From assembly GCF_028198145.1 (NCBI RefSeq), contig NZ_CP116338.1, positions 496,001-560,000 of the forward strand: DNA of 64,000 bases, read 5' to 3'. Origin of the DNA: Microbacterium sp. nov. GSS16 (GTDB lineage: Bacteria > Actinomycetota > Actinomycetes > Actinomycetales > Microbacteriaceae). The notes beneath the pieces were generated by a model. It was not told the DNA's origin, did not search any database, and was given only the letters and a program-made list of their open reading frames with translations. Below, piece after piece: positions 2,751 to 42,055 of this stretch. Both the position numbers and the translations under genes were made by a program. Positions within the stretch are counted from its first letter, which is position 1. Each line of letters starts with the position of its first letter.

Positions 2751-3620
2751 TCAGCGGCGGGGCACGACGCCCGAGATGTCGATCTCGCCGTCGTAGCTCA
2801 TCCATGCGAGCCACGCGGCAGGCGTCATGGCGCGCGCCTGAGCGAGGGCGTCCGGATCGACTCGCTCTCGGAGGTCGTCCAGCCCCGCGGTCCACGCGGT
2901 CGCCACGGCGGGTTCCGACTTCACGGACGATGCCCATTCCGCGTCGCGGCGCATCTGATGCCGATCGTCTGCACCCGAGCGCTTCGCCGCACGGTCTGCC
3001 GGATCGGCGGGGCCGCGGCGCACGCCGTCGCTGCGCACGGCGAGCCCGATGATCAGCAGCTCGATGACGGCGGTCATCGGCACCCACCACGCGATCGCCT
3101 CAGACGAGAATCCGCGCTCATCGGCCGATCCCGCCGCGAGGCGGAACACCAGCATGCCGACGCAGACGAGCCCGACCAGCACAGACAGGGTTTCTCCGAC
3201 ACGTGCGCTCTGATGATCGGGCACCCGCAGGAGCAGCACGATCATCAGGGCGGGAACGGCGATCGCTCCGGCGGCCAGCGCCACCGTTCCGCCCAGCTCG
3301 GGGTTCAGGAAGGCGTTCTTCCGGTCTGACGGCCCGAACATGACCGCCGAGACGAGCGCGGCGGTCAGGCCGATTCCGAGCAGCGTTCCCCAGACAGCCC
3401 GGAGCGCGGATCCGGTTTCCCGCAGCACCGGGGGAGTTGCGGATGCCGGCTGCTGAGCGCTCATCGCCGAGACGGCGGATCTGCGGCGCTGATGGATCGA
3501 CCACAGCCTCGCGAACAGCGCGGACGCCGCCTGCGGACGCACCTCCATGGCGTTGACCGCTGCCTGCCCGATCTCTCTGACGTCCGTGTCCTCCCCCTGC
3601 AGACGCACGACCGGCTTCAT
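2751..3620 (-). CDS. Membrane protein, T7SS operon
   Basis: A 289-aa protein with a soluble N-terminal 70 residues, four predicted membrane helices (around 73-95, 105-130, 140-162 and 173-195) and a charged C-terminal tail ending in ISGVVPRR. The ATG at 3620 overlaps the preceding stop as ATGA. It is the last gene of the long operon that starts at 26,917; the next promoter follows after 160 bases. I do not recognise the family. A part in the secretion apparatus is inferred only from coupling to the ATPase gene cluster. Confidence 0.75.
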   Translation of the reverse strand: MKPVVRLQGEDTDVREIGQAAVNAMEVRPQAASALFARLWSIHQRRRSAVSAMSAQQPASATPPVLRETGSALRAVWGTLLGIGLTAALVSAVMFGPSDRKNAFLNPELGGTVALAAGAIAVPALMIVLLLRVPDHQSARVGETLSVLVGLVCVGMLVFRLAAGSADERGFSSEAIAWWVPMTAVIELLIIGLAVRSDGVRRGPADPADRAAKRSGADDRHQMRRDAEWASSVKSEPAVATAWTAGLDDLRERVDPDALAQARAMTPAAWLAWMSYDGEIDISGVVPRR

Positions 3621-3877
3621 GACTGGGCCTCCGCATCATCGATGATCCAGGTGACGGTGGAAGCCATCGCGTCGAAGATCATCCGCACGGCCACGGCGTA
3701 CTCGTCGTCGTCGGGAGAGTCCGCGCCGATGACGGTGCTGCCCGTGAGCATGAGCGCGCGTCGTCGGTTCGTTCCAGGCACGGGTGTGACGTAGATGCTC
3801 TGCGCGCGGTGCGTCTCGTCGTCGAGGCCGGGCCTCCGCTCGTGCCAGCGGATGATCCGTCCGCCGGGGTCGAGCAT
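3617..3877 (-). CDS. Small hypothetical protein (possible C-terminal half of a split gene)
   Basis: An 86-aa protein from the ATG at 3877, with MLDPGGRIIRWHERR at the start and an acidic patch SPDDDEY near residue 54. It ends in ATGA overlap with the next gene. It lies in the same reading frame as the zinc-ribbon ORF just upstream (3896-4051), separated only by one TGA and six codons, and it has no good ribosome site (GAGGTG lies about 14 bases before the ATG). It may therefore be the C-terminal half of one original gene broken by a nonsense codon, or be translated by reinitiation. Function unknown. Confidence 0.6.
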   Translation of the reverse strand: MLDPGGRIIRWHERRPGLDDETHRAQSIYVTPVPGTNRRRALMLTGSTVIGADSPDDDEYAVAVRMIFDAMASTVTWIIDDAEAQS

Positions 3878-3895
3878 GCAGCCGGTCGCGGCACC

Positions 3896-4051
3896 TCAGC
3901 GCGTGCCAGCAACGACTTCTCTTCTGTGAGCCAGTCGGCCAGGGAAAAGCTCGCCGCAGTCGAAGCAGAGGCTCGCAGGCGCGATGCCGCTCTCCAAATA
4001 TCCGCACGTGCAAGACCGACCCGCCGCACGCCGAAGTTCGGCTTCTCTCAC
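3896..4051 (-). CDS. Zinc-ribbon mini-ORF downstream of the ATPase gene
   Basis: A 51-codon ORF starting at GTG 4051, overlapping the ATPase stop codon as GTGA, and ending at TGA 3898-3896. The peptide contains SCTCGYLESG and, twelve residues on, LCFDCGELF, a C-x-C...C-x-x-C arrangement that is a credible zinc ribbon and argues that this frame is really coding. Reading in the same frame continues after the TGA into the 86-aa ORF. Base composition at third positions is lower in GC than in the neighbours. It is either a tiny independent protein or the N-terminal part of a gene interrupted by a stop. Confidence 0.5.
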   Translation of the reverse strand: MREAELRRAAGRSCTCGYLESGIAPASLCFDCGELFPGRLAHRREVVAGTR

Positions 4052-7000
4052 CCCAGCACCTCCCCTTCGACCAGTGGCAGCTGCACCGTCACCTGGCGCC
4101 CCGCCTGCACGAAGATGCCTCGGCCCTCGGAGAAGTCGGTGCGCTTGACCTTGGGGAAGGGCACCTTGAACACGGCGTCGCCGTCGAACGAGTCGGGCTT
4201 GAGGATGATGCCCTTGCGGCCCGCCTTGAAGTCGCCGATGAACCCGAAGCCGCTGGTGACCTGCGTCACGTCGGCATCGCCGACGAGGAAGTGATCGCTG
4301 CGGTTGATGGCCTGGAACAGCGCCTTCATCTCGCGCTCGGCGGGGCTGTCGGCGAACTGCGGCACGTCCTCCACGACGATCATCACGCGCACGGGAAGGG
4401 TGTCATCGGCGACCAGCTCGGTGATCTCCTTGGCGAGCTCCTTGGCATCGTCGGGTGTCACGGCGCTGCGCGTCCAGTCGGCGTACTCCTTGAGCTGCGA
4501 GCGGCGTCCTCCGAAGTGGAACAGCTTCACGGCCGGGTCGAAACGCCGCATCGAGGTGACCATCGCCTTGAGCGCGTTCGTCTTCCCCGCCAGCGGCGGC
4601 CCCGCCACCACGAAGGTGCCGACCGGGTCGAAATCGCGCGCCGACAGGGTATCCTCGGCGACGCCGAGCACGGGGAACTCGCCCACGCGCTCGGGGAGGT
4701 CGCGAACCGACAGCCGGGTCGGCAGGGCGCCGATCTCGGCGACCTCGCGAGCCCCCGCCGCGCGCAGGTCCGCCGCCAGCTTCTCGAGCAGCTTGGTCTG
4801 CTCGGCGACGTTGGGGGTTCCGCCCAGTGTCGCGATCTGCGTCTCCAGCCCGTCCACGATGGCGCGTCCCGGAGCGGAGCGCTCGTCGAGCACGTCCTTC
4901 GGCGCGTTGAGCATCGCATACGCCGACTCGTCGGCAAGACGAAGCACCACGCGTCGCGACACGTTCGCGCTCACTGCCGTCGGGACCGATCCTGACCGGT
5001 CGGCGGTTGCGACCACATGCACGCCCAGCGGGCGACCCTCGCCGAGGATCCGCATGAACGTCTGGTAGAACGGCATCCGCGCGGTCGTCGACTCCCACTC
5101 CGAGCGGAACTGCGGGAACCCGTCGATGAGGAAGAGGATGCGCGACTCGTCGCGTCCGGTGATCTCCCGGTACTCGGTGAGGCTCGCCGCGTTCGCGGCG
5201 CTGAAGCGCTTGCCCCGGTCATCGAGCACCCGCGCCAGCGAGCGCAGGATGCGCTGCACGCGCTCGGCATCATCGCCCGCGATGATCGACCCGACATGCG
5301 GCAGCACCTCGAGGCTGCGCAACGACCCCGAGCCGAAGTCGAGGCCGTACACCTCGACGCTGCTCTTCGGATCGTGCCCGGCGGCGATGGCCAGAGTGCG
5401 CAGCACGGTCGACTTGCCCGAGCCGCTCGTACCGTAGACCAGCAGCGAGCCGTCCTTATCGGGCACGAAGTAGGTCGGCTCCTGCAGCTGGCGCGCGGGC
5501 ACGTCCATCTTGCCGAGCAGGATCTCGCCGTCGCCGCGCAGCGGCAGGTCGCGCAGGTCGACGGCCTGCTCGAGGTCGTCGAGCCAGGGTCGGCGCGGCG
5601 CCGGGATGCCCGCCTGCGCGGACGCCTTCACCAGGGTCGCGACGATGCGCTTCTGATCGGTGGGTCCGAGGTCCTCGTCGTGGGAGTCGGACTCGGGGGC
5701 CTGCTCGGCCTCCCAGAGCTGGGTCGATCCGAAGCGCAGCTCGGCGACCTTCACCTCGGCGACCTGCACCTCATCGGTCGTCCAGCCGCCAGCGTACGCC
5801 GACTGGAAGGGCACGAGACGCCCCGGCCCGGTCTTGGCGATGCCGCGACCGGGGATCGACGGCGGGAAGGATGCCGCGATCGGGTCGTCGACGACGTCCT
5901 TGGAGTCGGACTCGTCAGCCATGCGCAGCGCGACGCGCAGGTTCGTGTTGGCGCGCAGGTTGTCTTTGATGACGCCGGCGGGCCGCTGGGTGGCCATGAT
6001 CAGGTGGATGCCGAGCGAGCGCCCGCGCTGGGCGATGTCGACCACGCCGTCCACGAACTCGGGCACCTCTCCGGCGAGCGCAGCGAACTCGTCGATCACG
6101 AGCACGAGTGCGGGCGGGGTGTCGGGGTCGCGGCGCTTCTCGAGCTCGAGCAGGTCCTTCGCCTTCTTGCGGTTGAAGAGGTGCTCGCGGTGGTGCAGCT
6201 CGGCGCGCAGGCTGGTGAGCGCCCGCCGCACGAGGTGCGGGCTGAGGTCGGTGACCAGGCCGACCGTGTGCGGCAGGTCGACGCAGTCGGCGAACGCCGA
6301 ACCGCCCTTGTAGTCCACGAACAGGAAGGTGACGCGATCGGGGCTGTGCGCGGCGGCCATGCCGAGCACCCACGCCTGCAGGAACTCGCTCTTCCCCGCG
6401 CCCGTGGTGCCGCCGACGAGGGCGTGCGGGCCCTGCGTGCGCAGGTCGAGCGTCATGGCATCCGTCTGCGCCTGGCCGATGATCGCGCGAAGGTTGCCCG
6501 CCTTCTTCAGCCGCGACTGCGGGGCGCCCGAGCGGTCGATGATCGTGTTGTTCTGCCGCCAGCGGTCGATGACCGCGGTCGGGTCGGATGCCACCTCGCC
6601 GCCGACCAGGGAGAGGAACATCACCGAGTTCGGGATGTCGGAGGAATCCTCGACGACCGTGCTCGAGTCGACGACAGGCGCGAGGCGCTTCGCGAACATG
6701 GTCATGTACGCGTGCGAGACGCCCTCGACCTGCACGCCGGTGTACGAGACGCCGTTGCGGACGGTGCCGACGCGCGCGTTCTCGAGTCCGCCGGTGACGT
6801 CGACGAAGCTGCGGCACGCAGCCGGCAGCGCTTCGACCACCGGTGCGACGAAGAGCCCGTAGACACCGACGTCGGCGCCCCCTTCGAGGATCTGGGTGAG
6901 CCGGGCCCGGTCGACGGGCGCGTCGTCGGTGATGATGACGAGCACCGCGGTCTGACCGGGGAAGCTCGCCTCTTCGGCTGCTCTCTTCACGTCCGTGCCG

Positions 7001-8556
7001 AACAGGGTCGGATCCCAGTCGTCGCCGTAGGGAGGGCGAGGAGCGGATGCCGCCTTCGCCCGTCGCATGACGAGCTCTTCCAGCCCGTTCAGCAGCGCGG
7101 CGCCCGTCGACGCCGAGTCGGCCAGCGGCACGTCCTTGAACGGGTTGCGCTCACTGGAGGTGTGCGGCAGCCACTTCAGCCAGTCCAGCTCGTTCGCCCA
7201 GCCCGGCTCGGTGATCGCCACCGTGACGAGCTCGTTGGGCGAGTGCATGCCGAACAGCTGCACGGCGAGACCGCGCAGGGCGTCGCTCGCCGACGAGGTG
7301 GGACCTGCCACACCGATCGAGCCGACGCTCTGCAGCGACTCGAGGATCGGCACGTCGCTGATCATCCGGTACCGGTCTTCGAGCCGGTCGACGCGCTCGA
7401 CGTACTCGACCAGCGCCTCGGGCACCTCCGCGCGTTTGACCTTGGTGCGCGATTCGTCTTCGCAGGTGCCAAGGCGGACGGCGAGGAAGTTCCAGTGCTC
7501 GGGTCGCCGGGTCCACAGCATGGGCCCCAGGCGCATCGACTCGTCGAAGACGATCGCCACGGCCGGCACCTCCGCCTGACGCACCTCGCGTTCGCGCGGC
7601 TGGGCGTGGTAGAGCTTCTCTTCGAGGCGCTCGAACTGCTCTTCGAACGACTCCACCTCTTTGCGCAGGCGCTGACCGAGGTTGGTCTTCTGCGAGATGA
7701 AGTTGCCGAACATCATCATCGGCGACATGACCATGATCAGCAGCGAACGCGGGTTGTCGAAGATGAAGAACATCGCCGCGCCGAGCAGAATCGGCGCGAT
7801 CAGCATCGGCCAGGGGAAGAGCCGCTGCACCTGATCCTTCGGATAGCGCGGCTCGTCGAGGTCGGCACCGGTGTAGCGCTCCTCGACGCGCGGGCTGCGG
7901 TTGAACAGCAGCGCCCCGCCGCGCTCGAGCACGGGATCGGCGGCAGCCGAGCCGTCGTAGTCGCTGACCAGGTGCACGACCAGCTCGCAGTCGCCGAGCG
8001 TGAACTTCTGACCGGGGATGACGCGCAGTCGCTGCACGAGACCGCCGTCGACGAGGATGCCGTTCGCGGAGTTCAGGTCGACGATCTCGACGAACGTGGC
8101 TGCCACCTCGATGCGCGCATGCCGCTTCGAGACCAGCGGGTCGGAGAGCACCACGTCGTTCGCGGTGTCGCGGCCGATGAAGAAGTGCCCCACCGGCAGA
8201 GGGAACTCCTGCCCGGCGGCCGGCCCCGAGACGACGGTCAGCAGGGCAGCCGCGCGGCTCGACAGCATGGTCGTGGCGGCGCGGTTGGGGCCGAGGTTCA
8301 CGACCTCGGCGAGGAACCCCGAGCCGACCGGCGCGTCGCCGATCAGCAGGTCGGGGTTGAGCGTGACGAGCTCATCGCTGGTCGGCGGGGCGACGGAGAG
8401 GCTCAGCACGTCGCCGCCGGATGCCGCCACGGAGCGCAGCGGGTCGGTGCCGGCGATCTGCCCAGCCACATCGGCGACCGTCGCCGTGGAGTCCGCCATG
8501 ACCACGATGTCGGTCAGGGGGGCACCCGGGCGCCGCAGCGTCAGCTTGATTCTCAT
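4048..8556 (-). CDS. EssC/EccC-type FtsK/SpoIIIE ATPase of type VII secretion, with FHA domain
   Basis: This 1502-aa protein is the presumed secretion motor. Residues 1-90 look like a beta-grasp or FHA-like domain. Residues about 105-200 form a clear FHA domain (FFIGRD, SKRHARIEV, NSANG). Two membrane helices lie near 245-285, followed by a coiled-coil stretch. Three FtsK-type ATPase modules follow: the first with Walker A GGTTGAGKS near 715 and an intact Walker B LVIDEF; the second with GTSGSGKST near 1041 but IDGF instead of DE; the third with GPPLAGKT near 1317 and VVEDV. Only the first keeps a standard catalytic Glu, as in EccC proteins. N-terminal FHA, two membrane helices and three ATPases in one chain match Firmicutes EssC more than the mycobacterial EccCa/EccCb pair. 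AGGAGAACCG precedes the ATG. Confidence 0.93.
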   Translation of the reverse strand: MRIKLTLRRPGAPLTDIVVMADSTATVADVAGQIAGTDPLRSVAASGGDVLSLSVAPPTSDELVTLNPDLLIGDAPVGSGFLAEVVNLGPNRAATTMLSSRAAALLTVVSGPAAGQEFPLPVGHFFIGRDTANDVVLSDPLVSKRHARIEVAATFVEIVDLNSANGILVDGGLVQRLRVIPGQKFTLGDCELVVHLVSDYDGSAAADPVLERGGALLFNRSPRVEERYTGADLDEPRYPKDQVQRLFPWPMLIAPILLGAAMFFIFDNPRSLLIMVMSPMMMFGNFISQKTNLGQRLRKEVESFEEQFERLEEKLYHAQPREREVRQAEVPAVAIVFDESMRLGPMLWTRRPEHWNFLAVRLGTCEDESRTKVKRAEVPEALVEYVERVDRLEDRYRMISDVPILESLQSVGSIGVAGPTSSASDALRGLAVQLFGMHSPNELVTVAITEPGWANELDWLKWLPHTSSERNPFKDVPLADSASTGAALLNGLEELVMRRAKAASAPRPPYGDDWDPTLFGTDVKRAAEEASFPGQTAVLVIITDDAPVDRARLTQILEGGADVGVYGLFVAPVVEALPAACRSFVDVTGGLENARVGTVRNGVSYTGVQVEGVSHAYMTMFAKRLAPVVDSSTVVEDSSDIPNSVMFLSLVGGEVASDPTAVIDRWRQNNTIIDRSGAPQSRLKKAGNLRAIIGQAQTDAMTLDLRTQGPHALVGGTTGAGKSEFLQAWVLGMAAAHSPDRVTFLFVDYKGGSAFADCVDLPHTVGLVTDLSPHLVRRALTSLRAELHHREHLFNRKKAKDLLELEKRRDPDTPPALVLVIDEFAALAGEVPEFVDGVVDIAQRGRSLGIHLIMATQRPAGVIKDNLRANTNLRVALRMADESDSKDVVDDPIAASFPPSIPGRGIAKTGPGRLVPFQSAYAGGWTTDEVQVAEVKVAELRFGSTQLWEAEQAPESDSHDEDLGPTDQKRIVATLVKASAQAGIPAPRRPWLDDLEQAVDLRDLPLRGDGEILLGKMDVPARQLQEPTYFVPDKDGSLLVYGTSGSGKSTVLRTLAIAAGHDPKSSVEVYGLDFGSGSLRSLEVLPHVGSIIAGDDAERVQRILRSLARVLDDRGKRFSAANAASLTEYREITGRDESRILFLIDGFPQFRSEWESTTARMPFYQTFMRILGEGRPLGVHVVATADRSGSVPTAVSANVSRRVVLRLADESAYAMLNAPKDVLDERSAPGRAIVDGLETQIATLGGTPNVAEQTKLLEKLAADLRAAGAREVAEIGALPTRLSVRDLPERVGEFPVLGVAEDTLSARDFDPVGTFVVAGPPLAGKTNALKAMVTSMRRFDPAVKLFHFGGRRSQLKEYADWTRSAVTPDDAKELAKEITELVADDTLPVRVMIVVEDVPQFADSPAEREMKALFQAINRSDHFLVGDADVTQVTSGFGFIGDFKAGRKGIILKPDSFDGDAVFKVPFPKVKRTDFSEGRGIFVQAGRQVTVQLPLVEGEVLG

Positions 8557-8578
8557 CGGTTCTCCTGATTGTCGACTG

Positions 8579-10063
8579 TCACACCCGCTCGACGGTCAGC
8601 GTGCGGTCGCCGAAGCGCACCACGTCGCCGACCTGCACGGGTGCCGGGTCGCCGGGTGTCAAGGGCAGTTCGGAGCCGTCGCGGGCGATGGCACTGCCGT
8701 TCGTGGATCCGCGATCGATGACGAGCACCCCTCGGCGTGCCGGGAGGATCGCCAGGTGGGTCTTCGAGACGGATCGGGTGTCGTCGGCCACGGCGACGAG
8801 CTGCACGGCGCCCTCACCGGCGACCGGCGCCGGCGCCCGGCCGATGAGTGTGGCGCCGCGCACCTCGACCCGGCTGCCGTCGTCGAGTCGCAGCACCGCG
8901 CGCACCGCCGGGGTCGCGGCTGCGGACGCGGCGGGCTCAGGCGCCGCGGGTTGAGCAGGCGCCGCTGCGGGTGCCGACGCAGCCGGTGCAGGTGCAGCCG
9001 GTGCAGGTGCAGCCGGCGCGGACGCGGTCGGCGCAGCGGGCGCGGCGGGCGCGGAGGATGCGACGGGCGCGGGGGATGCGGGCGCGGCGGGGCTCGGCGC
9101 CGGTTCCGCGGAGCGGGCCGCGCCCGGCGTCGCGGGGGATGCGCCTCTCGGGGCGAAGGAATCGAGCAGCTGACCGGCCACGAGAGGGGGCGGCACAGCA
9201 TCCACCATCGCGCCAGGCGCGACGACGGGAGCGAACGGCGTCTCACGCGATGGCGTGGCCGGGACGGCGGGCGCGGCCGGCGACGCACCGGCCGCGGGCT
9301 GGGGCGCCGACGTCCTGCGGTGCGCGCCGATCACCCCACCCGACAGCCGCCCCGACGGCGTGTACTCGGCGGGGGCGTCGCGCTCGACAGGCGTGGCCAG
9401 GGAGGGAAGCGCGGGGCCGCGCGCGTGCTCGGTGATCCGCACCGACTTGCGGGCGATGCGCATGCGCTTCACGTCGTACGGGTTGAGTCCGCGGCGCACG
9501 TCGACCATCCACGTCGCACCGGCCTGGTCGACCCAGCTGCGGCCGCGGCGTTCGGAGTCGAAGAACGGCGAGAGCGCGATCACCAGAAGCGGGCCGAGCA
9601 GCGGCAGCAGGAAGGTCAGTGACAGCACGAGGTAGCGCACGACCGCTCCGCGCCAGAAGCCGGGGCGCTCGAGGGTGCGCACGTTGACCGTCCGCAGACC
9701 GAAGATGGCCTTGCCCGTGGTCACACCCTTGCGACCGAGCAGCACGAGCTGCACGACGATGAACACGGTGGCGAGCACGTTGCCGATCGCGAGTGCGACG
9801 ATCGGCCAGACCAGTGCCCCGTCGGCCAGCATGGTCGCCGCATCAGCGTCGCCGGCGACGATCTCGCCGAGTGCGGGCGTCGCCACCAGCAGCGCCGGCA
9901 GGGCGAACAGCACGAGGATGAGCAGCTCGATCAGGGTGGCAAGCGTCCGGCGCCCGAAAGGCGCGGGCAGCAGGCCGAGCGAGGCGGCGTACGCGGGGTC
10001 GGGATGCCCGGAGGCGTCGAGCCCTTCGATCTGCTTCTCGCCGTCGTCGATCTCCCAGATCAA
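8579..10063 (-). CDS. RDD-FHA membrane protein
   Basis: A 494-aa protein. Residues about 30-190 hold an RDD-type membrane domain with FGRRTLATLIELL at the start and several hydrophobic helices. A long Ala/Pro-rich linker (about 260-390) leads to a C-terminal FHA domain (about 395-494) with SVSKTHLAI and STNGS. The start is TTG at 10063: it overlaps the previous TGA as TTGA and has GGAG seven bases upstream, which decides against longer readings. The FHA domain should bind phosphothreonine on a partner, probably one phosphorylated by the operon's kinase. The ATPase gene follows 22 bases later. Confidence 0.88.
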   Translation of the reverse strand: MIWEIDDGEKQIEGLDASGHPDPAYAASLGLLPAPFGRRTLATLIELLILVLFALPALLVATPALGEIVAGDADAATMLADGALVWPIVALAIGNVLATVFIVVQLVLLGRKGVTTGKAIFGLRTVNVRTLERPGFWRGAVVRYLVLSLTFLLPLLGPLLVIALSPFFDSERRGRSWVDQAGATWMVDVRRGLNPYDVKRMRIARKSVRITEHARGPALPSLATPVERDAPAEYTPSGRLSGGVIGAHRRTSAPQPAAGASPAAPAVPATPSRETPFAPVVAPGAMVDAVPPPLVAGQLLDSFAPRGASPATPGAARSAEPAPSPAAPASPAPVASSAPAAPAAPTASAPAAPAPAAPAPAASAPAAAPAQPAAPEPAASAAATPAVRAVLRLDDGSRVEVRGATLIGRAPAPVAGEGAVQLVAVADDTRSVSKTHLAILPARRGVLVIDRGSTNGSAIARDGSELPLTPGDPAPVQVGDVVRFGDRTLTVERV

Positions 10064-10773
10064 TCCAGCTCTCCTTCGGGTTCGCTCTGGGGCGCGTCCA
10101 GCATGGCGAGGTCGTCTCGCGTCACCAGCCGTGAGGCCACCGCGTGCTCCACGAGGCGGGCGCGCCGGTTGGTGGCGAAGCTGCGCTGCCCGCCGCGCAT
10201 GCCGGGCACGCCGATCCGGTCGAGCTTGTCGCACACGTTGTCGAGCTTGCGGTTGAAGCGCGTCACCGTCCAGCCCAGGCGCTCGGCCGCCTTCGCCGAG
10301 CTGGGGATCTCGCTCATCCCCGTTCCGTCGCGACGCAGCTGCGGCTCGGCCAGTGCGAGGATGAGCAGCTTCTGACTCTCGGTCAGCGGAACGGCGCCGA
10401 TGGTCGACGCGCCGTCGCCCTCGGTCTCGCGGCGGATGGCGCGGAACGCCGGCTCGTCGGAGTGCACGGTCATCTCGTAGGTGGTCGGTCCCGCGGTGAA
10501 GACGATCGTCGTCCGCTCGAACACCAGAGGCAGCCGTGCGCCGGGGGCAAGCCACGCCTGCACGCCGCCGGCCGAATCGGTCACGGTGGCCGAGAGGCGG
10601 CTGCCGATGTTCGTGAGCCACCACAGACCGTCGTCATGTGCGATCTCGAGGAAGTGACGGTGCAGGAAGAGGTTGTCGTCGAGTTCGAGATCCCCCTCCC
10701 TGCCGACGGTGAACGACGTCGACGTGTCGACGGGGAAATACTCTCCTGCGAACTCCACGGTCACGGTGGTCAT
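10060..10773 (-). CDS. FHA domain protein with C-terminal helix-turn-helix region
   Basis: A 237-aa soluble protein. Residues 1-95 form an FHA-like fold (FTVGREGDLELDD, LHRHFLEI; the usual SxxH is HRHF). After a linker, residues about 140-215 (beginning LTESQKLLILALAEP, then AAERLGWTVTRFNRKLDNVCDKL) look like a winged or LuxR-type helix-turn-helix. The ATG at 10773 overlaps the kinase stop as ATGA. A phospho-reading domain fused to a DNA-binding-like domain inside this operon makes it a candidate regulator of the two inverted-repeat promoters; that link is inference. The HTH assignment rests on pattern only. Confidence 0.8.
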   Translation of the reverse strand: MTTVTVEFAGEYFPVDTSTSFTVGREGDLELDDNLFLHRHFLEIAHDDGLWWLTNIGSRLSATVTDSAGGVQAWLAPGARLPLVFERTTIVFTAGPTTYEMTVHSDEPAFRAIRRETEGDGASTIGAVPLTESQKLLILALAEPQLRRDGTGMSEIPSSAKAAERLGWTVTRFNRKLDNVCDKLDRIGVPGMRGGQRSFATNRRARLVEHAVASRLVTRDDLAMLDAPQSEPEGELD

Positions 10774-26917: not shown

Positions 26918-26979
26918 GCATTTCCCCCGGAATCACAGCTGGTCCGCTCCGCGTCACCGCGTGGCGGGCATACCGGTTC

Positions 26980-27029
26980 ATCCTAACTCGGGCGTGTTCC
27001 GCTCCCGATGGGGAGAGTTACCCATCGGG
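26980..27029 (-). promoter_or_regulatory. Promoter with inverted-repeat operator, T7SS main operon
   Basis: CCCGATGGG (27004-27012) and CCCATCGGG (27021-27029) form a perfect 9-bp inverted repeat around an 8-base centre. On the minus strand TAGGAT at 26985-26980 is a good -10, 21 bp downstream of the 20-bp core 27007-27026. The predicted start is near 26973, with a 56-base leader. The core shares 16 of 20 bases with 2671-2690. It also lies 12 bases after the stop of the gene at 27041, so a terminator role cannot be excluded. Confidence 0.6.
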
Positions 27030-27040
27030 GCGTCTCGGCG

Positions 27041-27607: not shown

Positions 27608-27608
27608 G

Positions 27609-34004: not shown

Positions 34005-34966
34005 GCAGTTCCGTTCTCGCTCGGCGGGTCGACGTCGAGCAGGATCTGCCCGATGACCGCGATCGCCGTGACCCCGTCGAACTCCGCTTCGGGTTCGAGC
34101 ACGAGGCGGTGGGCGAGCGCGACGACGGCGAGCTCCCGCACGTCGTCGGGGGTGACGAAGGTGCGCCCGTTCTTCGCCGCCCAGGTCATCACGAGCCGGG
34201 AGAGGGCGAGCGCGCCGCGCACGCTGACGCCGAGACGCACCTCGGATGCCCGTCGGGTCGCGTCGACGATGCGCATGATGTAGTCCGAGATCAGCGGGTT
34301 GACGTAGACGCTCCTGGCGATCTCACCCATGGTCAGCAGGGTGTCGGTGCCGACGAGCGGGGCGAGCTTCTTCTGCGGCTCGGGTGCCGCCTGCAGGATC
34401 CGCATCGTGGCCGCGTCGTCCGGGTACCCGATCGATGTCTTGATCATGAAGCGGTCGAGCTGCGCCTCAGGCAAACGGTACGTGCCGCCCTGCTCGATCG
34501 GGTTCTGCGTCGCGAGCACGAGGAACGGCGAGCCGACGGCGCGGCTGACACCGTCGACCGTGACCGTTCCCTCCTCCATCACCTCGAGCAGCGCGGACTG
34601 CGTCTTCGGGCTCGCGCGGTTGATCTCGTCGGCGAGCACGATGTTGGCGAACACCGGCCCGGCGTGGAACTCGAACTCGCCCTCCTTCTGGTCGTACACC
34701 GTGATGCCGGTCACATCGCCCGGCAGCAGGTCGGGCGTGAACTGGATCCGGGCGCTCGTGCCGGTGACCGTCTGCGCGATCGATCGCGCGAGTGCCGTCT
34801 TCCCCGTGCCGGGGAAGTCCTCGAGCAGCACGTGGCCGCCGGTCACCGCCGTCGCGAGGACGAGCTCGATCACGTGCCGCTTGCCGAGGATCGCCTGCTC
34901 GACGTTCTCGGAGAGGAGCGAGAACGTCTCGGAGAACCAGGAGGCCTGTTCGGGGGCGATGGTCAT
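34001..34966 (-). CDS. MoxR-family AAA+ ATPase, second module
   Basis: A 321-aa AAA+ protein with Walker A FPGTGKTALARS, Walker B VLADEINRASPKTQ and sensor ATQNPIEQGGTYRLPEAQ, all intact. The ATG at 34966 follows GAGGATGCTGC. It lies 46 bases after the second giant gene and overlaps DUF58. Same role as the first-module MoxR. Confidence 0.93.
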   Translation of the reverse strand: MTIAPEQASWFSETFSLLSENVEQAILGKRHVIELVLATAVTGGHVLLEDFPGTGKTALARSIAQTVTGTSARIQFTPDLLPGDVTGITVYDQKEGEFEFHAGPVFANIVLADEINRASPKTQSALLEVMEEGTVTVDGVSRAVGSPFLVLATQNPIEQGGTYRLPEAQLDRFMIKTSIGYPDDAATMRILQAAPEPQKKLAPLVGTDTLLTMGEIARSVYVNPLISDYIMRIVDATRRASEVRLGVSVRGALALSRLVMTWAAKNGRTFVTPDDVRELAVVALAHRLVLEPEAEFDGVTAIAVIGQILLDVDPPSENGTA

Positions 34967-35012
34967 GCAGCATCCTCTCGGAGTGGGCTGGCGGCGGGTG
35001 CGCCGCCGAAGG

Positions 35013-38000
35013 TCACGGGCATCCGGGCATCCTCCGGGTGATCGGCGACAGCGTCGCGTAGGCGCCGTTCCACGAGAGGGTCACGTCGAACGAGCCCGGT
35101 GCGTCGGCCGCCTCGGCCGCCGTGACACGGTACGAGCCCCGCGCGGCAGCAGAGACACTCACGGCCTCGGACGGGTCGGTGGGCGACAGGCACGGCGCGA
35201 AGTCGACCTCGACGATGGTCGGCGCGGTCGTGGCGGTGATGTTCACGGTGTTCGAGCACCGGTCGGTCTCGGTCGCGTGGCATGCGCGCGCGCGAACCTG
35301 GCCCGGGGAGGCGGCGGCGCTGAGCGTGAAGTCGCCGCGCCACGATCCGTACATCTGGTACTGCGCCACGAAGCCGGGCTCGACGTCGATCGAGGGCGCC
35401 GAGGCGAGCGGGTAGGTGTAACGGTCGCCCTGACGGGTGGGCTGCTCGCTGATCCGGTAGGTGGTGTCGCCGCCGGGGCCGTCGACGAAGGTGAAGGTGA
35501 ACACCCGCGCGGTGCTCGACTCGGCGACGCCGTACCCGTTCGACACGCAGGCCTTCACGTTGTAGGCCTGGTATGCCTCGAGCCCCTGCAGCGACGGGGA
35601 GGGCGACGCGACCTCGGCCCCGAAGACCGTCAGGTCGCCGGAGTCGTCGGCGCTGCAGGTCGCCCGGCCCGATCGCCACGCCAGGTACGTGACCTCGAGC
35701 GGCTCGGTGCTGCCGTTGGCCTGCGGCGAGATGCCCGACACGTTCACCGCGGTGTTCGACACGGCGGTCGCCTGGGTCTGGGCGGGGTCGAAGTACGGCG
35801 CGCCGGCCACGGTCACCGACACCGGGTACGAGGCCCCTTCGTTGCCACCGCCGGTGGGCGGCTGGAACTGGCTGACCGGCACGAGCGTGATGGTCTGCGC
35901 TCCTGGCGCCAGCTTCAGCTCCGCAGTGGTCGTGGCTCCGGTGCGCGCGATCACGTCACCGGTCTCTGCGACGCGGAAAGCCCTGGCGTCGTTCGCGGCG
36001 GTGATGGCCAGGGAGACGATCCCTCTGCCGCGGTCATTGCCGCCGTGCCGGTACACGGGGGTCGCGGTGGCGTTCGAGATCTCGGGCGCCTCGTACGCCC
36101 AGCTGGTGTGCGCCGAGGTGACGGCGGATGTGCCGACGGCGTTGACGGCCGCTGCGGTGAAGGAGTGCGGCACCCCGTTCACCAGGCCGTTCACCGTGCA
36201 TCGGAACGCACTGCCCGCCGCGCGGCAGGCGGCGCCGGCCGGCGCGCCGTCGCGAAGGATCGTCACCCCGGTCAGAGCGGGATGCGCGCGCGCGGCTTCG
36301 CCGAGCGCGACTTCCAGCTCGACGCTCGACCGACCGAACCCGATGGTCGTGAGGCTCGCCGGTGCCTGGGGGTAGCCCTGCAGGTCGAGTGTGAGCGTGC
36401 CGCCGCCGGTGCGACCCTGAGCATCCGCGACCGTGAACGGCACCGTGCACTGACCGCCGGGCGCCTGCCCGCCGGCGGGCCAGCTGACGGCGACAGCGCG
36501 GTCGCCTGCCGCCGAGAGCGCGGCGATGTCGCAGCGGGCGCCCGCGCTCAGCGAGACCAGCTTCAGCCCTGCGCCGGGCTTGCCTGCGAACGGGTCGTAC
36601 TCGCCGGCCACGTCGACGACGTCGATCGAGCATCCGCCGCTGGTCACCACGCACTGACGGGTGATGGTCGCCCCGCGCGGGGCGTCGGGGGGTGCTGCCC
36701 CGACGACGAGGCGCAGCACTGCCGTCGGCTCGCCGTCCGAGGCGACGGTCACTGTCACCGGCTCGACGGAGCCGGAGCGGGCGTCCGCTCGCGCCTCGAC
36801 ACTCAGCACGGCCCCCTTCTGGCTGACGATGAACGATGACCCCGAGTAGGCGATCCGGTACTCCAGCGATGAGCGATCGCCCTCGCGCCCGCCCTCCCAC
36901 GAGGCCATCCCGGCGTACAGGTCGATGTCGGTCGTGGCGCCGGGCGCGACCGTGTGCGAGATCGACGACAGCACCAGCTGCGGTGCCGACGGGCGGATGC
37001 CCACCGGCACGTCGACGTACGACCAGGTGCGCTGCCCGTCGAGACGCACCGCCACAAGGCAGGTGTCCGCCCAGGGGGCCTCGCGACCGGCCGTGTAGGT
37101 CGCTGAGGTGCCCGAGCCGGCGGTGCAGGTGGCCGCCCTGCGCTGGGCGAGGAACGGTCCGTCGTCGATCCTGACCTCGTCGGATGCCGGCAGATCGAGC
37201 ATCTCGCGCACATCGAAGGTCTTCGACGCGTCCTCGTCGACCATCACGGGTGCTATGCCCTGCTTCAGCTGCACGCGCATGTCGTCGAAGGCGGGGATGT
37301 GCAGAAATCCGTATCCGGCGACGTCGCGACCGGCGGGGGATGTGCCGGAGACCTGGAACGGCACGAGCGCGCCGCGCTCCGGCGCCGTCCCGACGATGCG
37401 ACTGCCCTTCACGGTGAAGCCGTCGGCGTCGCCCCACAGGCTCAGCTTCAGCGACCGCACCTCTCCCGACGCCCACTGCACACGGTCACGGAGCACGTCG
37501 ATTCCGCCCGACGCGAGCTCCGCTCTGTCGCGCGCGGTGAGCACCGTGTCGGAGACGATCGGCTGGTCGACGACGGCGCCGTCGGTGACCGACACGACGA
37601 TGAGTCCCTGCGCGGTGCTGCCCGTGCGGGTCGAGCGCACCGTGTAGAAGTACGAATTCGTGCCCGCCACCTCGCCCGCACGCAGCACGATCCGGCCGTC
37701 GCCGAGCGACGTGTCACGATCGATGAGCGCGTCGAGTCGCGCGTACAGCGGGTTGCCGGCCACGGAGGGGGCGTTGGGCACGAGATCGACGATCTCGAGC
37801 TCTCCCTGCGCGGGATCGGAGTCGTTCGCCGCCGGATGGATCACCACCGGCGTCGCCGAGTCGGCCTCGACGCGGACATAGTCGCTGTAGGCGACCGGCG
37901 CGGCATCCGTCACCCGCGCGTCGAGGACGCCGATCCGGATCCGCCCCGAGCCCTCGTCGCCCTGGGAGTCGCGGACCGAGTACCGGAACGTCACCTGGCC

Positions 38001-40928
38001 GCCCTCGACTCCGCCGGCAGGAGCCCGATAGACGATCGCGTCACCCGCCGCCGAGATCGTGGCCGTCCCGCGACCGCGCTCCGGCTGCTCCACCGCCGCG
38101 AGGATGACCCGGTCGCCGTCGGGATCGACGCCGTTCGTCGGCACGGTGAGTGAGACGGTCTGTCCGCTGAGCACGCGTCCGGTGAGTGCCGGCGGATTCG
38201 GTGCACGGTTGGTGCCGGAGGGGACGACGGTCACCATCACCGCGCCGCTGTCGAAGAGGTCGGGGCTGCGTTCGAGCGAGACCGCGTAGGTCAGCCGGTA
38301 CGTCCCCGGTGTGGCGGGTGCGAGGTAGCGCAGCGCGCCGCCGTCGGCGAAGACGAGCTCGCCCTCCTGACCGGATCCGCTGACGTCGGGGCGCACGAGC
38401 AGCGGTTCGCCGCGTGGCGCGACGTCGTTCGCGGTGACGTCGATACGGGTCAGGGCGCCGGCGCGCACGGTGACCGCATCGGGGAACGCGATCGGCCGGG
38501 TGACGGTCGACGGCGGAGCGAGGAACACCGTGACCGCTCCCTCGACGGCCGCGCCCGATCCGTCGGCCACCGTCACCGTGGCCTTTCCGATGACGCCGGG
38601 TTCACCGTCGGCGGTCGTGCCGCTGACGCGGAGACGCTCGTTGCCGACCACGTTCGCCGTGAGCTGCGGGGTCGAGCTGACCGCTTCCGCGAGGATCAGC
38701 ACGCGCCCGCTCGTGTTCTGCACGGCGCCCAGCACGTCGACGGTCGTGTCCTCACCCTCACGGACGAAGACGGTGAGCGGTGCCATCGTCAGCGAGGCGG
38801 ATCCGTCGACGGCGGTGATCCGGATCACCGCCGACTGCTCGGCCTGGGTCGTCGTGTCCTGCGCGGTGTAGGTGACGACGTACTGACCGGCTTCCGGAAC
38901 GATCACCTCGACCTCGCCGGATGCCGTGTTCGGCACCACCGTCATGCCCTCGGCGGTTGCGGCGGTCTGCACGGCGTCGACGAGCCGGTACGAGCCGGAT
39001 CCTCCGGTGACATGATCGCCGATGCGCACGGTCTGCGGCTCGCCGATGCGCGCGGTGATCGCCACCGGCATCGCCCGCATGGCAGGGCTGCCGCTCACCC
39101 GCACCTCGAGCGTCTTGTCGGCTGCGGCGCCGCGGGCATCGGCGACGACGACGGTCACGGCGATCACGGCATCCGTCGCGTTCGGGTCGGTGTGGCGGAT
39201 CGCCACACGCCCGTCGGCTGTGGGCACGACCATGACGGGCGCGGCCGGATCGACCTCGAACGCGTCGCTCAGAACGAAGGGGTCGCCCTCGGGATCGACC
39301 CATCCCGACAGCACCGGCACGATGGTGCTGCCGCCGGGCAGCAGCTCGGGCGACGGCCACTCCTGCCGGCAGGCGTCGACGCCGCACCAGACCGGCGCCG
39401 TGTTCGCATCGTCTGCTGCCACAGTGAGCGTGACGGTGGCGGGCTGCGACACGGCCGCCCCGTCGGTCACCGCATAGCTGAAGGTCGTCTGTCCGGACGT
39501 CGCCCGCACGTCGACCACCAGCGACTGTCCGTCGCCCACCAGCGACAGCTCGCCGAAGGCCGGGTCGGCCAGCCCGCCCTCGACGGACGACGCGTCGATC
39601 GTCAGCACGTCCTTGCGGTTCGGGTCGTGATCGTTCAGCAGGACGGGGAGCACGACCTGCTCCCCCGGCCGCACCCCGAACGCGTCGTCCACGGCCACCG
39701 GGGGCAGCTGCTCGGTGACGTCTTCGACGACGACGCGCCCTTCCTGCTCCTGCGTCTCGTCGTCGACATCCCACTGTTCGAGCGGCACAGGTCGACCGTC
39801 CGGGGCCGTCCAGATGAGCCCGGTGGCGACCTCGGTGAGCACCGCGCGGTCGCCGTTCGCCCGGAATACAGGCTGGATGTCGGCGGACTCCAGAACCCCG
39901 TCCGGCACGGTCAGCGCGGTGACGTCACCGTCGGACCACAGCGTTCCCGACTCCGCGCCGACCCATGCCGCGTGTCGCGCCGAGCCGACCACGACGGGAG
40001 GGGCGGGCACGCCCTCCGCCTGAGCGAGGCGATCGACGTCGCCGTCGCGCAAGGCGACCGACACGAGCCCCATCGAGTCGGCGATCAGCACGTCGTCGCC
40101 GCGCGCGGCACCGCCCTGCATCACCGCGTCGTCGGCGATGTCGAGTTCGACGGGGTCGCCGCGGCCGGCGATCCACAGGCGGCTCTCGCCGGGCTGCAGC
40201 AGCGCCCAGCGCTCGCCGACGACGGTGAGAGCCAGGTCGGCGTCGCCCTCCGGCGCCCGCGTGAGCGCGGACGCATCGCCGATGAAGCGGTGCCGGTCGA
40301 TGTCGAAGAGGCGCACGGCGCGCTCATCGGCCGAGTACATCGCAAGCAGGCCGCGAGGTGACAGGCCGATCGCGTCAGCGACGTAGGTCGGACGCTCCTC
40401 CCCGTCCTCCACCTCGACCTCGGCGAACGGGTCGACGAGGGCCGTGGCCGCTCCGCGGTCGAGTGACGACACCGACACCTGGCCGGTGTCGGCGCGGTAG
40501 GCGACGAAGGATCCGGCAGAGACGATCTGTCGAGTGCCGGTCGGGGTGGGGACGGATGCCGACGGAGCGCCGTCCTCTCCGGCATCCGAGAGCAGATCGC
40601 CGGGGCTCGCAGGGTCGATGTCCCACCGCTGCCTGCTGCCCTGGCTGAACAGCACCGCCGACTGCCCGCTCTGCCACACCGCCTCGGGGGATTCCGCCGA
40701 GCGGACCGTGTCGATCTCGGCGAGCTCGGTGTTGACCCGGGCGTACTGCCCTGCCTCGCGCAGCACCCACACCGACGACTCGAGCCGGGGGACTTCCTGC
40801 GCCTGGTATCCCTGCGCGGTGACGGCGAGCACGATGACGACGAGCACGGAGACGGCGCCGGCGATGCCCGCGATCAGGCGCCCACGAGAGCGTGCGGGCG
40901 CGGTCGGCTGCGCCTGCCCCCGCGCCAT
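35013..40928 (-). CDS. Giant membrane-anchored Ig-like/FN3 surface protein, second module
   Basis: A 1971-aa protein with a short basic N-terminus and one membrane helix (about 17-40), then a propeller-like region (about 45-400; VWVLREAG at the start parallels VWLTKSSS in the other copy), a run of Ig-like repeats (about 408-1500; VLLNDHDPN, GWVDPEGDPF, NGVDPDGDRV, AANDSDPAQGE) and FN3-like domains to the C-terminus, where several Cys pairs appear. The ATG at 40928 shares a base with the kinase stop (TGATG). No C-terminal sorting signal. Same architecture as 20816-26917 but a different end domain, so the two probably recognise different partners. Confidence 0.88.
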   Translation of the reverse strand: MARGQAQPTAPARSRGRLIAGIAGAVSVLVVIVLAVTAQGYQAQEVPRLESSVWVLREAGQYARVNTELAEIDTVRSAESPEAVWQSGQSAVLFSQGSRQRWDIDPASPGDLLSDAGEDGAPSASVPTPTGTRQIVSAGSFVAYRADTGQVSVSSLDRGAATALVDPFAEVEVEDGEERPTYVADAIGLSPRGLLAMYSADERAVRLFDIDRHRFIGDASALTRAPEGDADLALTVVGERWALLQPGESRLWIAGRGDPVELDIADDAVMQGGAARGDDVLIADSMGLVSVALRDGDVDRLAQAEGVPAPPVVVGSARHAAWVGAESGTLWSDGDVTALTVPDGVLESADIQPVFRANGDRAVLTEVATGLIWTAPDGRPVPLEQWDVDDETQEQEGRVVVEDVTEQLPPVAVDDAFGVRPGEQVVLPVLLNDHDPNRKDVLTIDASSVEGGLADPAFGELSLVGDGQSLVVDVRATSGQTTFSYAVTDGAAVSQPATVTLTVAADDANTAPVWCGVDACRQEWPSPELLPGGSTIVPVLSGWVDPEGDPFVLSDAFEVDPAAPVMVVPTADGRVAIRHTDPNATDAVIAVTVVVADARGAAADKTLEVRVSGSPAMRAMPVAITARIGEPQTVRIGDHVTGGSGSYRLVDAVQTAATAEGMTVVPNTASGEVEVIVPEAGQYVVTYTAQDTTTQAEQSAVIRITAVDGSASLTMAPLTVFVREGEDTTVDVLGAVQNTSGRVLILAEAVSSTPQLTANVVGNERLRVSGTTADGEPGVIGKATVTVADGSGAAVEGAVTVFLAPPSTVTRPIAFPDAVTVRAGALTRIDVTANDVAPRGEPLLVRPDVSGSGQEGELVFADGGALRYLAPATPGTYRLTYAVSLERSPDLFDSGAVMVTVVPSGTNRAPNPPALTGRVLSGQTVSLTVPTNGVDPDGDRVILAAVEQPERGRGTATISAAGDAIVYRAPAGGVEGGQVTFRYSVRDSQGDEGSGRIRIGVLDARVTDAAPVAYSDYVRVEADSATPVVIHPAANDSDPAQGELEIVDLVPNAPSVAGNPLYARLDALIDRDTSLGDGRIVLRAGEVAGTNSYFYTVRSTRTGSTAQGLIVVSVTDGAVVDQPIVSDTVLTARDRAELASGGIDVLRDRVQWASGEVRSLKLSLWGDADGFTVKGSRIVGTAPERGALVPFQVSGTSPAGRDVAGYGFLHIPAFDDMRVQLKQGIAPVMVDEDASKTFDVREMLDLPASDEVRIDDGPFLAQRRAATCTAGSGTSATYTAGREAPWADTCLVAVRLDGQRTWSYVDVPVGIRPSAPQLVLSSISHTVAPGATTDIDLYAGMASWEGGREGDRSSLEYRIAYSGSSFIVSQKGAVLSVEARADARSGSVEPVTVTVASDGEPTAVLRLVVGAAPPDAPRGATITRQCVVTSGGCSIDVVDVAGEYDPFAGKPGAGLKLVSLSAGARCDIAALSAAGDRAVAVSWPAGGQAPGGQCTVPFTVADAQGRTGGGTLTLDLQGYPQAPASLTTIGFGRSSVELEVALGEAARAHPALTGVTILRDGAPAGAACRAAGSAFRCTVNGLVNGVPHSFTAAAVNAVGTSAVTSAHTSWAYEAPEISNATATPVYRHGGNDRGRGIVSLAITAANDARAFRVAETGDVIARTGATTTAELKLAPGAQTITLVPVSQFQPPTGGGNEGASYPVSVTVAGAPYFDPAQTQATAVSNTAVNVSGISPQANGSTEPLEVTYLAWRSGRATCSADDSGDLTVFGAEVASPSPSLQGLEAYQAYNVKACVSNGYGVAESSTARVFTFTFVDGPGGDTTYRISEQPTRQGDRYTYPLASAPSIDVEPGFVAQYQMYGSWRGDFTLSAAASPGQVRARACHATETDRCSNTVNITATTAPTIVEVDFAPCLSPTDPSEAVSVSAAARGSYRVTAAEAADAPGSFDVTLSWNGAYATLSPITRRMPGCP

Positions 40929-42055
40929 CAGAGGATCCCGGTCAGGGTGAGCATGACGACCCCCACCGCCGCGATCGCCGCCGCCCCGACGAGCGCTCCG
41001 ATGACACCGGCCACCCATGGCGAGCGCGCTCGCGGGCCGGACGGGAGATCGTCTCGCTCGCGCAGGCTCGCACGCTGCTTCTCAGCGCGAGCGGCACGAC
41101 GGGAATCGGGGGCGACGGTGGTGATCACGGGGCCGCGATGACCGGCATCCGCGAAGCTGACCGGAGCGGCCGCCGCCCACTCGGCGGATGCCGCTTCGAA
41201 CGCGGTCGGTGCGATGCCGAGCTCGTACTGCGCCCAGCGCAGACGATCGGCGAAGGCTGACATCGACCCGAACCGCTGCGCCGGGTCACGATGCATGGCC
41301 GTCGCGAGCAGCTGATCGATGATCGGGGGCATGCCTGCGACCGGGATCGGCGTGTAGCGCGCACGGATGATGCGCTGTCGCAGCTGATCGCGGGCGTTGG
41401 ACTCCCGGTCGGGCAGTTCGAACGGGCTGCGTCCGGCGAGCAGGGTGTACAGAGTCGCCGCAAGGCTCCACACCTCGCTGGGCACCGACCCGGTCACCCG
41501 CTCCTGCAGCACCTCGGGTGAGCTCCACGGCACCGACATCGCGAAGACGTCGCTCTCACCGGCATCCACCACAGCGGCGGCGATGCCGAAGTCGGCGAGC
41601 ACGGGGGAGCCGAGCGAGTTGATCAGCACGTTCGACGGCTTGATGTCGCGGTGCAGCAGTCCCGCGCGGTGCACGGTCTCGAGCGCGCCGGCGATGCGCA
41701 CCCCCGTGTCGAGCACCTCGGCGAGGGGCAGCGGCCCCTTCCGATAGCGGGCGCTCATCGTGTCGGGGCAGTACTCCATCGCGAAGTACGGGCGACCGTC
41801 GGCCGAGATCGATGCCTGATAGATCGTGACGATCGAGGGATGCGCGCTGAGCCGCGCCGAGATGTCGGCTTCGGCGTTGAACGCGCGGAGCACCTCGGGG
41901 TTCACCGCGTCGGCGAGCAGCACCTTCACCGCGGCGACGCGGCGAGGCATGTCCTGCTCGTACAGGAAGACGTCGGCGAACCCGCCCGAGCCGAGCGGCC
42001 GCACGTAGCTGTAGCCGGCCAGCGTGGGAGGCGGCGACGTGATGCGCTTCGCCAC
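40928..42055 (-). CDS. PknB-like Ser/Thr kinase with C-terminal membrane helix
   Basis: A 375-aa kinase: glycine loop GSGGFADVF, HRDIKPSN, DFGIA, activation segment ending PWSSPE, then a basic linker and a terminal membrane helix (about 347-372) with almost nothing outside. It thus lacks the extracytoplasmic sensor of the first-module kinase. Start is GTG at 42055 with GAGGAGG 5 bases upstream. It is the first gene of the second operon, whereas the kinase in the first module lies near the end. Confidence 0.92.
   Translation of the reverse strand: MAKRITSPPPTLAGYSYVRPLGSGGFADVFLYEQDMPRRVAAVKVLLADAVNPEVLRAFNAEADISARLSAHPSIVTIYQASISADGRPYFAMEYCPDTMSARYRKGPLPLAEVLDTGVRIAGALETVHRAGLLHRDIKPSNVLINSLGSPVLADFGIAAAVVDAGESDVFAMSVPWSSPEVLQERVTGSVPSEVWSLAATLYTLLAGRSPFELPDRESNARDQLRQRIIRARYTPIPVAGMPPIIDQLLATAMHRDPAQRFGSMSAFADRLRWAQYELGIAPTAFEAASAEWAAAAPVSFADAGHRGPVITTVAPDSRRAARAEKQRASLRERDDLPSGPRARSPWVAGVIGALVGAAAIAAVGVVMLTLTGIL

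Follow-up and report, generated by a model that had tools for sequence, protein, structure and literature searches.

A PFNA-type module with predicted phospho-signalling and surface proteins, genetically linked to a type VII secretion ATPase in Microbacterium and related Actinomycetota

What could bring two successive sets of kinase, phosphatase, chaperone-like and giant surface-protein genes into one run with a type VII secretion motor? This question is raised by a 64,000-nucleotide stretch (the window) of the Microbacterium sp. nov. GSS16 genome, which is complete on a single contig of 2.9 Mb (NZ_CP116338.1, positions 496,001 to 560,000; coordinates below are those of the window unless a locus is named). 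Open reading frame (ORF) calls and Pfam matches assign 26 genes between 42055 and 118, all on the minus strand, the larger part of which form two modules. Module B, at the 5' end, consists of genes for a Ser/Thr kinase, a giant immunoglobulin (Ig)-like protein, MoxR, DUF58, a TgpA-like protein, a DUF5684-FHA protein, a PP2C phosphatase and a protein with one transmembrane (TM) segment. Module A follows after a gap of 123 bases and is ordered differently, with the kinase late rather than first: giant Ig/Fn3 protein, MoxR, DUF58, TgpA-like protein, RDD-FHA protein, PP2C, FHA protein, kinase, a protein here termed FHA3, a second RDD-FHA protein and an ATPase combining an FHA domain with an EssC-type motor. 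This ATPase is followed on its 3' side by small ORFs and then by genes for a WXG100 protein, another small helical protein and a candidate substrate of 415 residues. In these respects the window agrees with its initial annotation, according to which each module would encode a kinase, PP2C, FHA protein, TgpA-like protein, DUF58, MoxR and an Ig protein of about 2000 residues, and only the first (A) would carry the ATPase, followed by WXG100-type genes.

The association of module A with its ATPase is conserved across the order to which the genome belongs. Among 347 genomes surveyed, the ATPase (a best match of at least 575 bits, fragments being included and second copies uncounted) is present in 105, and FHA3, taken as the marker for module A, in 146; both occur in 87, giving an odds ratio of 15 by Fisher's test, uncorrected for kinship. 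FHA3 (10060..10773; 237 residues) has, by eye, an FHA-like start and a helix-turn-helix-like end, and neither Pfam nor a PDB-sequence profile search returned a match for it. Measured as the difference between start coordinates, the two genes lie no more than 25 kb apart in 73 of the 87 genomes with both and no more than 7 kb apart in 61, with linked pairs in 11 family codes (f1, f3, f5, f6, f8, f9, f10, f12, f13, f18 and f20). Hence the linkage of the ATPase, giant, MoxR, DUF58 and TgpA genes extends well beyond this strain, to which, as the initial annotation had allowed, it might have proved confined.

Inspection of individual loci shows how the association is built. In the window's own family, f1, 40 ATPase loci from 38 genomes were covered over 20 kb on the upstream side and half of these, 20 loci, also over 20 kb on the downstream side, two upstream stretches being shortened by contig ends and several of the ATPases being divergent. 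Giant, MoxR and DUF58 genes lie within 20 kb of the ATPase in 17 of the 40 loci, upstream in 11 (with TgpA) and downstream in six, where one stretch stops before TgpA and the set in G141 is of the B type. When 11 other family codes are considered, with a single locus for each, the full set adjoins the ATPase in eight; the exceptions are an f20 locus at a contig end with the kinase half present, an f14 locus with the RDD-FHA gene only, and an f4 locus with a different set. An Aeromicrobium metagenome-assembled genome (MAG; L171) holds FHA, kinase, FHA3, giant, MoxR, DUF58, TgpA, RDD-FHA and ATPase genes within 20 kb, and genome G485 has a near-identical arrangement of markers to the window. Further, RDD-FHA stands directly beside the ATPase in G086, G142, G137, G021, G148, G125 and G179, where the remaining module lies elsewhere. 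As a control, MoxR flanks of about 10 kb were compared: an ATPase match is present in 17 of the 43 named giant-bearing loci as against one of the 37 generic MoxR loci, a flank of this length often ending before the ATPase in A-type loci. The sole generic locus with a match, L189 of a Bacillota MAG, has its MoxR-DUF58-TgpA set about 5 kb from a piece of an EssC-like ATPase (L189:4152-4949; 30% identity, 91 bits).

The gene content of both modules has a published counterpart in the PFNA operon of Bifidobacterium, described as pkb2, fn3, aaa-atp, duf58, tgm, prpC, a hypothetical gene and fha (PMC8430577, PMC6803598), whose kinase is reported to phosphorylate its MoxR (PMC8430577). According to PMC6803598 and PMC10688814, this operon is found only in Bifidobacterium, without orthologues in other organisms. 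As in PFNA, both window modules place kinase, giant, MoxR, DUF58 and transglutaminase-like genes in one cluster; the order pkb2-fn3-aaa-duf58-tgm is matched by module B and by f4 loci, but not by module A. In the f4 locus L126, kinase, giant, MoxR, DUF58, TgpA, PP2C and FHA follow the published order (the seventh gene aside), and the giants of the PFNA-like f4 loci carry a window-type head (192-227 bits against its profile). This order, together with the T7SSd-like set described below, is among the grounds on which f4 probably corresponds to Bifidobacteriaceae. PFNA-type cassettes are also present in named Agromyces, Arthrobacter, Isoptericola, Cellulomonas, Nocardioides, Scrofimicrobium and others. 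The window differs from PFNA in its tandem copies and in the FHA and RDD-FHA genes and fused type VII ATPase that module A adds.

The three chaperone-like genes of these modules appear to share one history. They comprise MoxR AAA+ ATPases (19782..20753 in A, AAA_3 209.6 bits; 34001..34966 in B, 204.5 bits), DUF58 proteins (18520..19782 in A, 420 residues, 41 bits as scored on a longer ORF; 32631..34004 in B, 38.2 bits) and TgpA-like membrane proteins (16136..18523 in A, Transglut_core 66.8 and TgpA_N 36.7 bits; 30097..32634 in B, Transglut_core 40.3 bits). Generic MoxR-DUF58-TgpA clusters have the same three families in the same order. Quick trees were made for MoxR (88 rows), DUF58 (88) and TgpA (87, one row under 400 residues being dropped), the program giving a warning of long branches; 11 generic rows were included (10 of the 37 named generic loci and one own locus, truncated named loci being omitted). 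Modules of lineages A, B and C and the f4 rows together stand apart from the generic rows in the MoxR (99) and TgpA (100) trees, both values being asterisked, and with a support of 48 in the DUF58 tree. The B lineage, which includes the window's module B MoxR, forms a clade in the MoxR, DUF58 and TgpA trees (99, 100 and 100, all asterisked), as do C (94, 97 and 99, the latter two asterisked) and f4 (95, 91 and 100, the first and last asterisked); A is a grade, B and C are sisters in the MoxR (96) and TgpA (100) trees, again with asterisked values, and the f4 rows are basal to A, B and C. Since the A/B/C labels were assigned from best tblastn matches, MoxR among them, it is to some extent circular that they cluster in the MoxR tree. 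The correlations of pairwise distances between the three families are independent of these labels over the whole set: r lies between 0.83 and 0.96 in every subset, with none of 200 permutations as high in any test, species history being still included in these values. Thus the three genes, for which the initial annotation had proposed phylogenies, co-evolve, as the agreement of the trees shows.

The TgpA-like proteins of the modules are further set apart by their active site. The transglutaminase cysteine is absent from all 76 module rows, and hence these proteins are pseudo-enzymes, a designation that the initial annotation had given to the window's copies and that proves to be general. In module A an aspartate occupies the cysteine column; in module B the cysteine is absent and the histidine site is changed too. 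In contrast, the generic clusters keep the cysteine in eight of 11 TgpA rows, have no giant and show no ATPase match in 36 of the 37 named loci.

To which type VII secretion system (T7SS) does the ATPase belong? It is a protein of 1502 residues with three P-loops (4048..8556; FtsK_SpoIIIE 207 bits, FHA 48.9 bits), and resembles EssC/YukB of T7SSb and EccC of T7SSa in its three-ATPase FtsK-type motor and WXG100 partner (2301..2597; PF06013 39.3 bits, cut-off 27.3). It differs from both in scoring under the curated cut-offs of all three models (EssC 538 bits against 778, EccCa 345, EccCb 325). Searches of the source genome gave no Pfam match for EccB, the same model being positive in 23 of 149 genomes of the order, and none for EssB/YukC or the ubiquitin-like EsaB/YukD, whose models were positive in a B. 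subtilis control. Membership of T7SSa or T7SSb is ruled out on the ground that EccB, YukC and YukD were not found. In a tree of 66 rows based on the first ATPase domain (seven duplicate or second-domain rows being dropped), the window clade, the lineage C ATPases and the f4 ATPase form one group (98/97), apart from the ATPases of G106 and G403 and from one T7SSa and one T7SSb reference, both of which are long branches.

Modules of this kind adjoin more than one sort of motor. Genomes G106 and G403, of the window's genus, carry a full module A, with MoxR 89% identical, beside a different type VII ATPase that is 29% identical to that of the window and, in G106, scores 538 bits with the EssC model. 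On its 3' side in G106 lies a gene for a 1231-residue protein with a WXG100_2 domain (L221:6237-9932; 36.4 bits, cut-off 27). In each of the 15 tree loci of lineage C (Agromyces, Cryobacterium, Salinibacterium, Microcella and others), the last gene of the module encodes an EssC-related ATPase, the one in L139 having 1003 residues and an EccCa score of 219 bits, below cut-off. Lineage B, ATPase-less in the window, is joined to the ATPase in G235 and G158 (both f10) and in G141. The source genome has, in addition, a third FtsK-type ATPase in a frame of 910 residues (G000:C1:2592901-2593383; L244, L245), which groups with the lineage C module ATPases (100/99) and has none of the genome's DUF58 matches nearby.

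The closest described secretion system is T7SSd, a phospho-controlled, Ig-protein-bearing T7SS of Actinomycetota (Garrett, Higginson and Palmer 2024; PMC11217815). Like it, the window, itself from an actinomycetote, has an FHA-bearing EssC-like ATPase that keeps the phosphothreonine-binding FHA motif, a WXG100 protein, a kinase and a large Ig-like protein. The WXG100 protein, with its PF06013 score above cut-off, is a counterpart of TsdA, and the membrane Ser/Thr kinase, with its Pkinase domain and one TM, of TsdD; as for TsdC, the window ATPase has FHA and ATPase domains and groups at 98/97 with the T7SSd-like f4 ATPase, in a tree that contains no confirmed Olsenella or Bifidobacterium TsdC. 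TsdI is described with a signal peptide and a C-terminal TM and TsdH with a single TM and a short cytoplasmic part (PMC11217815). Unlike TsdI, the window giants have their only TM at the N-terminus, and no TsdH-like gene stands beside the ATPase; a 188-residue protein of module B with one C-terminal TM (27041..27607) shares the TsdH topology, a comparison of topology alone. The window also adds MoxR, DUF58, TgpA, PP2C, RDD-FHA and FHA proteins, and its giant is of the PFNA type; the main text of PMC11217815 makes no mention of MoxR or transglutaminase. In the f4 genome G228 (L123, L097-L098) a T7SSd-like set, in which a WXG match, a kinase, a 147-residue protein, a 1798-residue protein and a 1369-residue ATPase could be made out (order and sizes by eye), lies about 12 kb from the PFNA-like set on the opposite strand; in G228, G283 and G402, all of one f4 genus, about 30 kb separate MoxR from the ATPase. 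The profile of the giant head does not match the 1798-residue protein even at an E-value of 10. A homology of the window giant to TsdI was thus not detected by this profile, and the giant is PFNA-like instead.

The giants themselves, 2033 residues in A (20816..26917) and 1971 residues in B from a hand-chosen start (35013..40928; the mechanical ORF runs to 41018), are predicted from their sequences to sit on the cell surface. In both, a single TM-like stretch lies at the N-terminus, and the C-terminus has none. Their first 430 residues, the head, are conserved across lineages A, B and C and appear propeller-like: against PDB sequences the head profile matches designed Pizza proteins, which are six-bladed propellers, at 1e-6 to 2e-5 and the PknD sensor at 0.0012, over about profile positions 120-187 only. 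Beyond the head, giant A has eight Big_9 stretches and Fn3 domains over the cut-off; giant B, which lacks Fn3 matches over the cut-off, has Big_9/cadherin-like repeats.

The signalling proteins appear equipped for phospho-control. The module A kinase (10770..12413; 547 residues, Pkinase 132.3 bits) has one TM and an extracellular tail of about 110 residues, and that of module B (40928..42055; 375 residues, 139.7 bits) one C-terminal TM and no extracellular domain; both retain the catalytic lysine, HRD and DFG. The PP2C phosphatases (13948..14757 in A, from a hand-moved start, PP2C_2 35.6 bits; 27609..28439 in B, start not pinned, 39 bits) both retain DGMGGH. The S..H and NG residues are kept in five FHA domains, namely those of the ATPase, of the two RDD-FHA membrane proteins (14754..16139, RDD 55.2 bits, FHA 20.6 bits against a cut-off of 20.7; and, next to the ATPase, 8579..10063 from a hand-chosen TTG start, RDD 55.1 and FHA 25.2 bits on the longer ORF), of the module A FHA protein (12410..13951; 513 residues, 27.5 bits) and of the module B DUF5684-FHA membrane protein (28433..30100; Pfam). 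A defence function was rejected, a PADLOC scan of seven proteins having returned generic kinase, ATPase and PP2C similarities alone.

Taken together, these features incline us, if by no great measure, to the reading that the two PFNA-type modules together form a kinase-switched type VII exporter, in which a surface-assembly unit under phospho-control serves an exporter of T7SSd-like kind and the giant is the predicted outer part. Since the pairing recurs across many bacterial families, module A probably assembles and controls the outer part of a secretion machine, and the two halves would act in contact, as one machine or complex. In such a scheme the kinase would sense an outside cue, via its extracellular tail or via partners, and would phosphorylate threonines of partner proteins; the FHA domains of the ATPase, the two RDD proteins and the FHA protein could then bind these and gather the complex, with PP2C resetting the switch. 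MoxR, DUF58 and the pseudo-transglutaminase TgpA would function as an assembly chaperone for the membrane-anchored giant, and export of the WXG100 pair, along with the 415-residue candidate effector, would fall to the EssC-type ATPase. Module B might represent a second, ATPase-less copy that either shares this exporter or acts by itself, as is supposed for PFNA.

Several observations weigh against this reading. The window-type ATPase is missing from 59 of the 146 genomes with the marker, and the marker from 18 of the 105 with this ATPase; in 14 of the 87 genomes with both they are unlinked (distant on one contig in five, on separate contigs in nine), and they lie far apart in the f14 genomes that have both. 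Ten of the 59 genomes with the marker but not the ATPase were inspected over 20 kb on each side: two, G106 and G403, have the different type VII ATPase described above, G162, G384 and G166 have the full module with no ATPase match within 20 kb, and G342, G223, G151, G199 and G462 retain no more than some of the kinase, PP2C and FHA genes or the marker by itself. Additionally, the T7SSd-like set of f4 comes with a kinase and a large protein of its own, separate from the PFNA-like module, and a shared operon does not prove a shared complex. Because of the 59 genomes, the coupling of module and ATPase is to be seen as modular and not obligatory; moreover, as the marker is also found without the giant, FHA3 is an imperfect proxy for module A. 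The combined, phospho-controlled surface-assembly and secretion system put forward in the initial annotation is partly supported, by the conserved linkage, the co-evolving chaperone genes and the lost cysteine of TgpA; that its two halves work as one machine is an inference.

Such a pattern could also arise from two independent machines, a PFNA-type adhesin with its chaperones and a T7SSd-like exporter, which share a promoter, a kinase and a signal without making contact, and we give this explanation real weight while thinking it the less probable. The 18 genomes with the ATPase alone speak for it, as do the inspected genomes with the module but no ATPase (three of ten) or with the regulatory genes alone (five of ten), and the ATPase and module trees, which are not one-to-one, congeners having swapped ATPases. 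However, two unconnected machines do not readily account for a link that is kept over 11 family codes in differing gene orders, with the module upstream or downstream, for a pairing renewed with at least three ATPase types, or for the RDD-FHA gene that stays directly beside the ATPase even when the other module genes are found elsewhere. A third explanation is that the locus is a canonical published T7SSd in which MoxR, DUF58 and TgpA were overlooked as core parts. The WXG100, FHA-ATPase, kinase and Ig-rich giant are indeed all present, and the grouping of the ATPase with that of the T7SSd-like gene set (98/97) agrees with this; yet the head profile that finds the PFNA giants at 192-227 bits misses the f4 1798-residue protein, the TM arrangement of the window giants is not that of TsdI, and no clear TsdH exists in module A, which together make this account improbable. 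Chance neighbourhood in one lineage, or an assembly artefact, is scarcely credible given the 73 linked genomes, the near-identical arrangement in G485 and the completeness of the single-contig genome.

Neither half of the window's system is new: as far as the literature found goes, the joining of a PFNA-type module with a T7SSd-like ATPase is the new element. The initial annotation had held the MoxR-DUF58-TgpA and FHA/kinase/PP2C sets each to be known families and had taken their fusion into one operon to suggest a combined system; no paper uniting the module with a T7SS was found, but the kinase, giant, MoxR, DUF58, transglutaminase, PP2C and FHA set is that of PFNA and the phospho-controlled T7SS with an Ig protein is that of T7SSd. 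The search for publications joining PFNA and T7SS covered titles, abstract openings and passages, mostly outside subscription journals and supplements, and an earlier notice may exist. Two literatures have thus stood apart, one on a Bifidobacterium operon said to be unique to that genus and concerned with adhesion and cytokine binding, the other a bioinformatic one on an Actinomycetota T7SS without known partners of its motor, and the window and its relatives place PFNA-type and T7SSd-like parts in one operon across many families. The comparison names candidate envelope parts and phospho-switches for a T7SS without EccB, YukC or YukD, and predicts that the 'transglutaminase' is a pseudo-enzyme. 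A bolder conjecture, tentative and in our view rather unlikely to hold in full, is that PFNA operons are the surface half of type VII machines: a giant, membrane-anchored propeller-Ig/Fn3 fibre would be raised by MoxR, DUF58 and the pseudo-transglutaminase, switched by kinase, PP2C and FHA proteins, and docked repeatedly to different EssC-type motors as their extracellular part, with the cytokine-binding FN3 protein of gut bifidobacteria as a relic or a branch.

The remaining features concern the fine structure of the locus. Coupling by overlaps of 1-4 bases, noted in the initial annotation, is present at 15 of 25 gene junctions, a count that depends on three hand-chosen starts (giant B moved to 40928, PP2C A to 14757, and the TTG start of the RDD-FHA gene at 10063). 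The widest gap, 153 bases, separates a 289-residue ORF from the WXG100 gene. No promoter- or terminator-like sites were seen in the two stretches scanned (26500-27300 and 41900-42500), which in GC-rich DNA is weak evidence. The ATPase unit is continued by ORFs of 51 residues (3896..4051; no Pfam match), 86 residues (3617..3877; short matches adjoin the ATPase in L094, L100 and L082) and 289 residues (2751..3620; a membrane protein with no match in the other loci compared), and does not end at 2751, since the WXG100 and effector-like genes (118-2597) belong to it as well. These include, besides the WXG100 protein, a 112-residue helical protein (1889..2227), WXG100/EspC-like in size and place with an EspC match below cut-off, and the 415-residue candidate type VII substrate (645..1892; T7SS_signal 23 against a cut-off of 27), which agrees best with relatives beside other ATPases over its first 280-300 residues or so. 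In L080 (G021) the triad of WXG100-like, 112-residue-like and 415-residue-like genes occurs twice 3' of the ATPase, as expected if these were exported effectors with their own partners. A 168-residue protein with four TM segments (118..624) might, at a guess, be an immunity partner.

Two A-type MoxR-DUF58-TgpA sets stand in tandem in L132 (G126:C1:800000-819999), and hence tandem copies are not peculiar to the window. On the 5' side of module B, a gene on the same strand (42279-42851) appears to encode a DNA-3-methyladenine glycosylase I (Tag).

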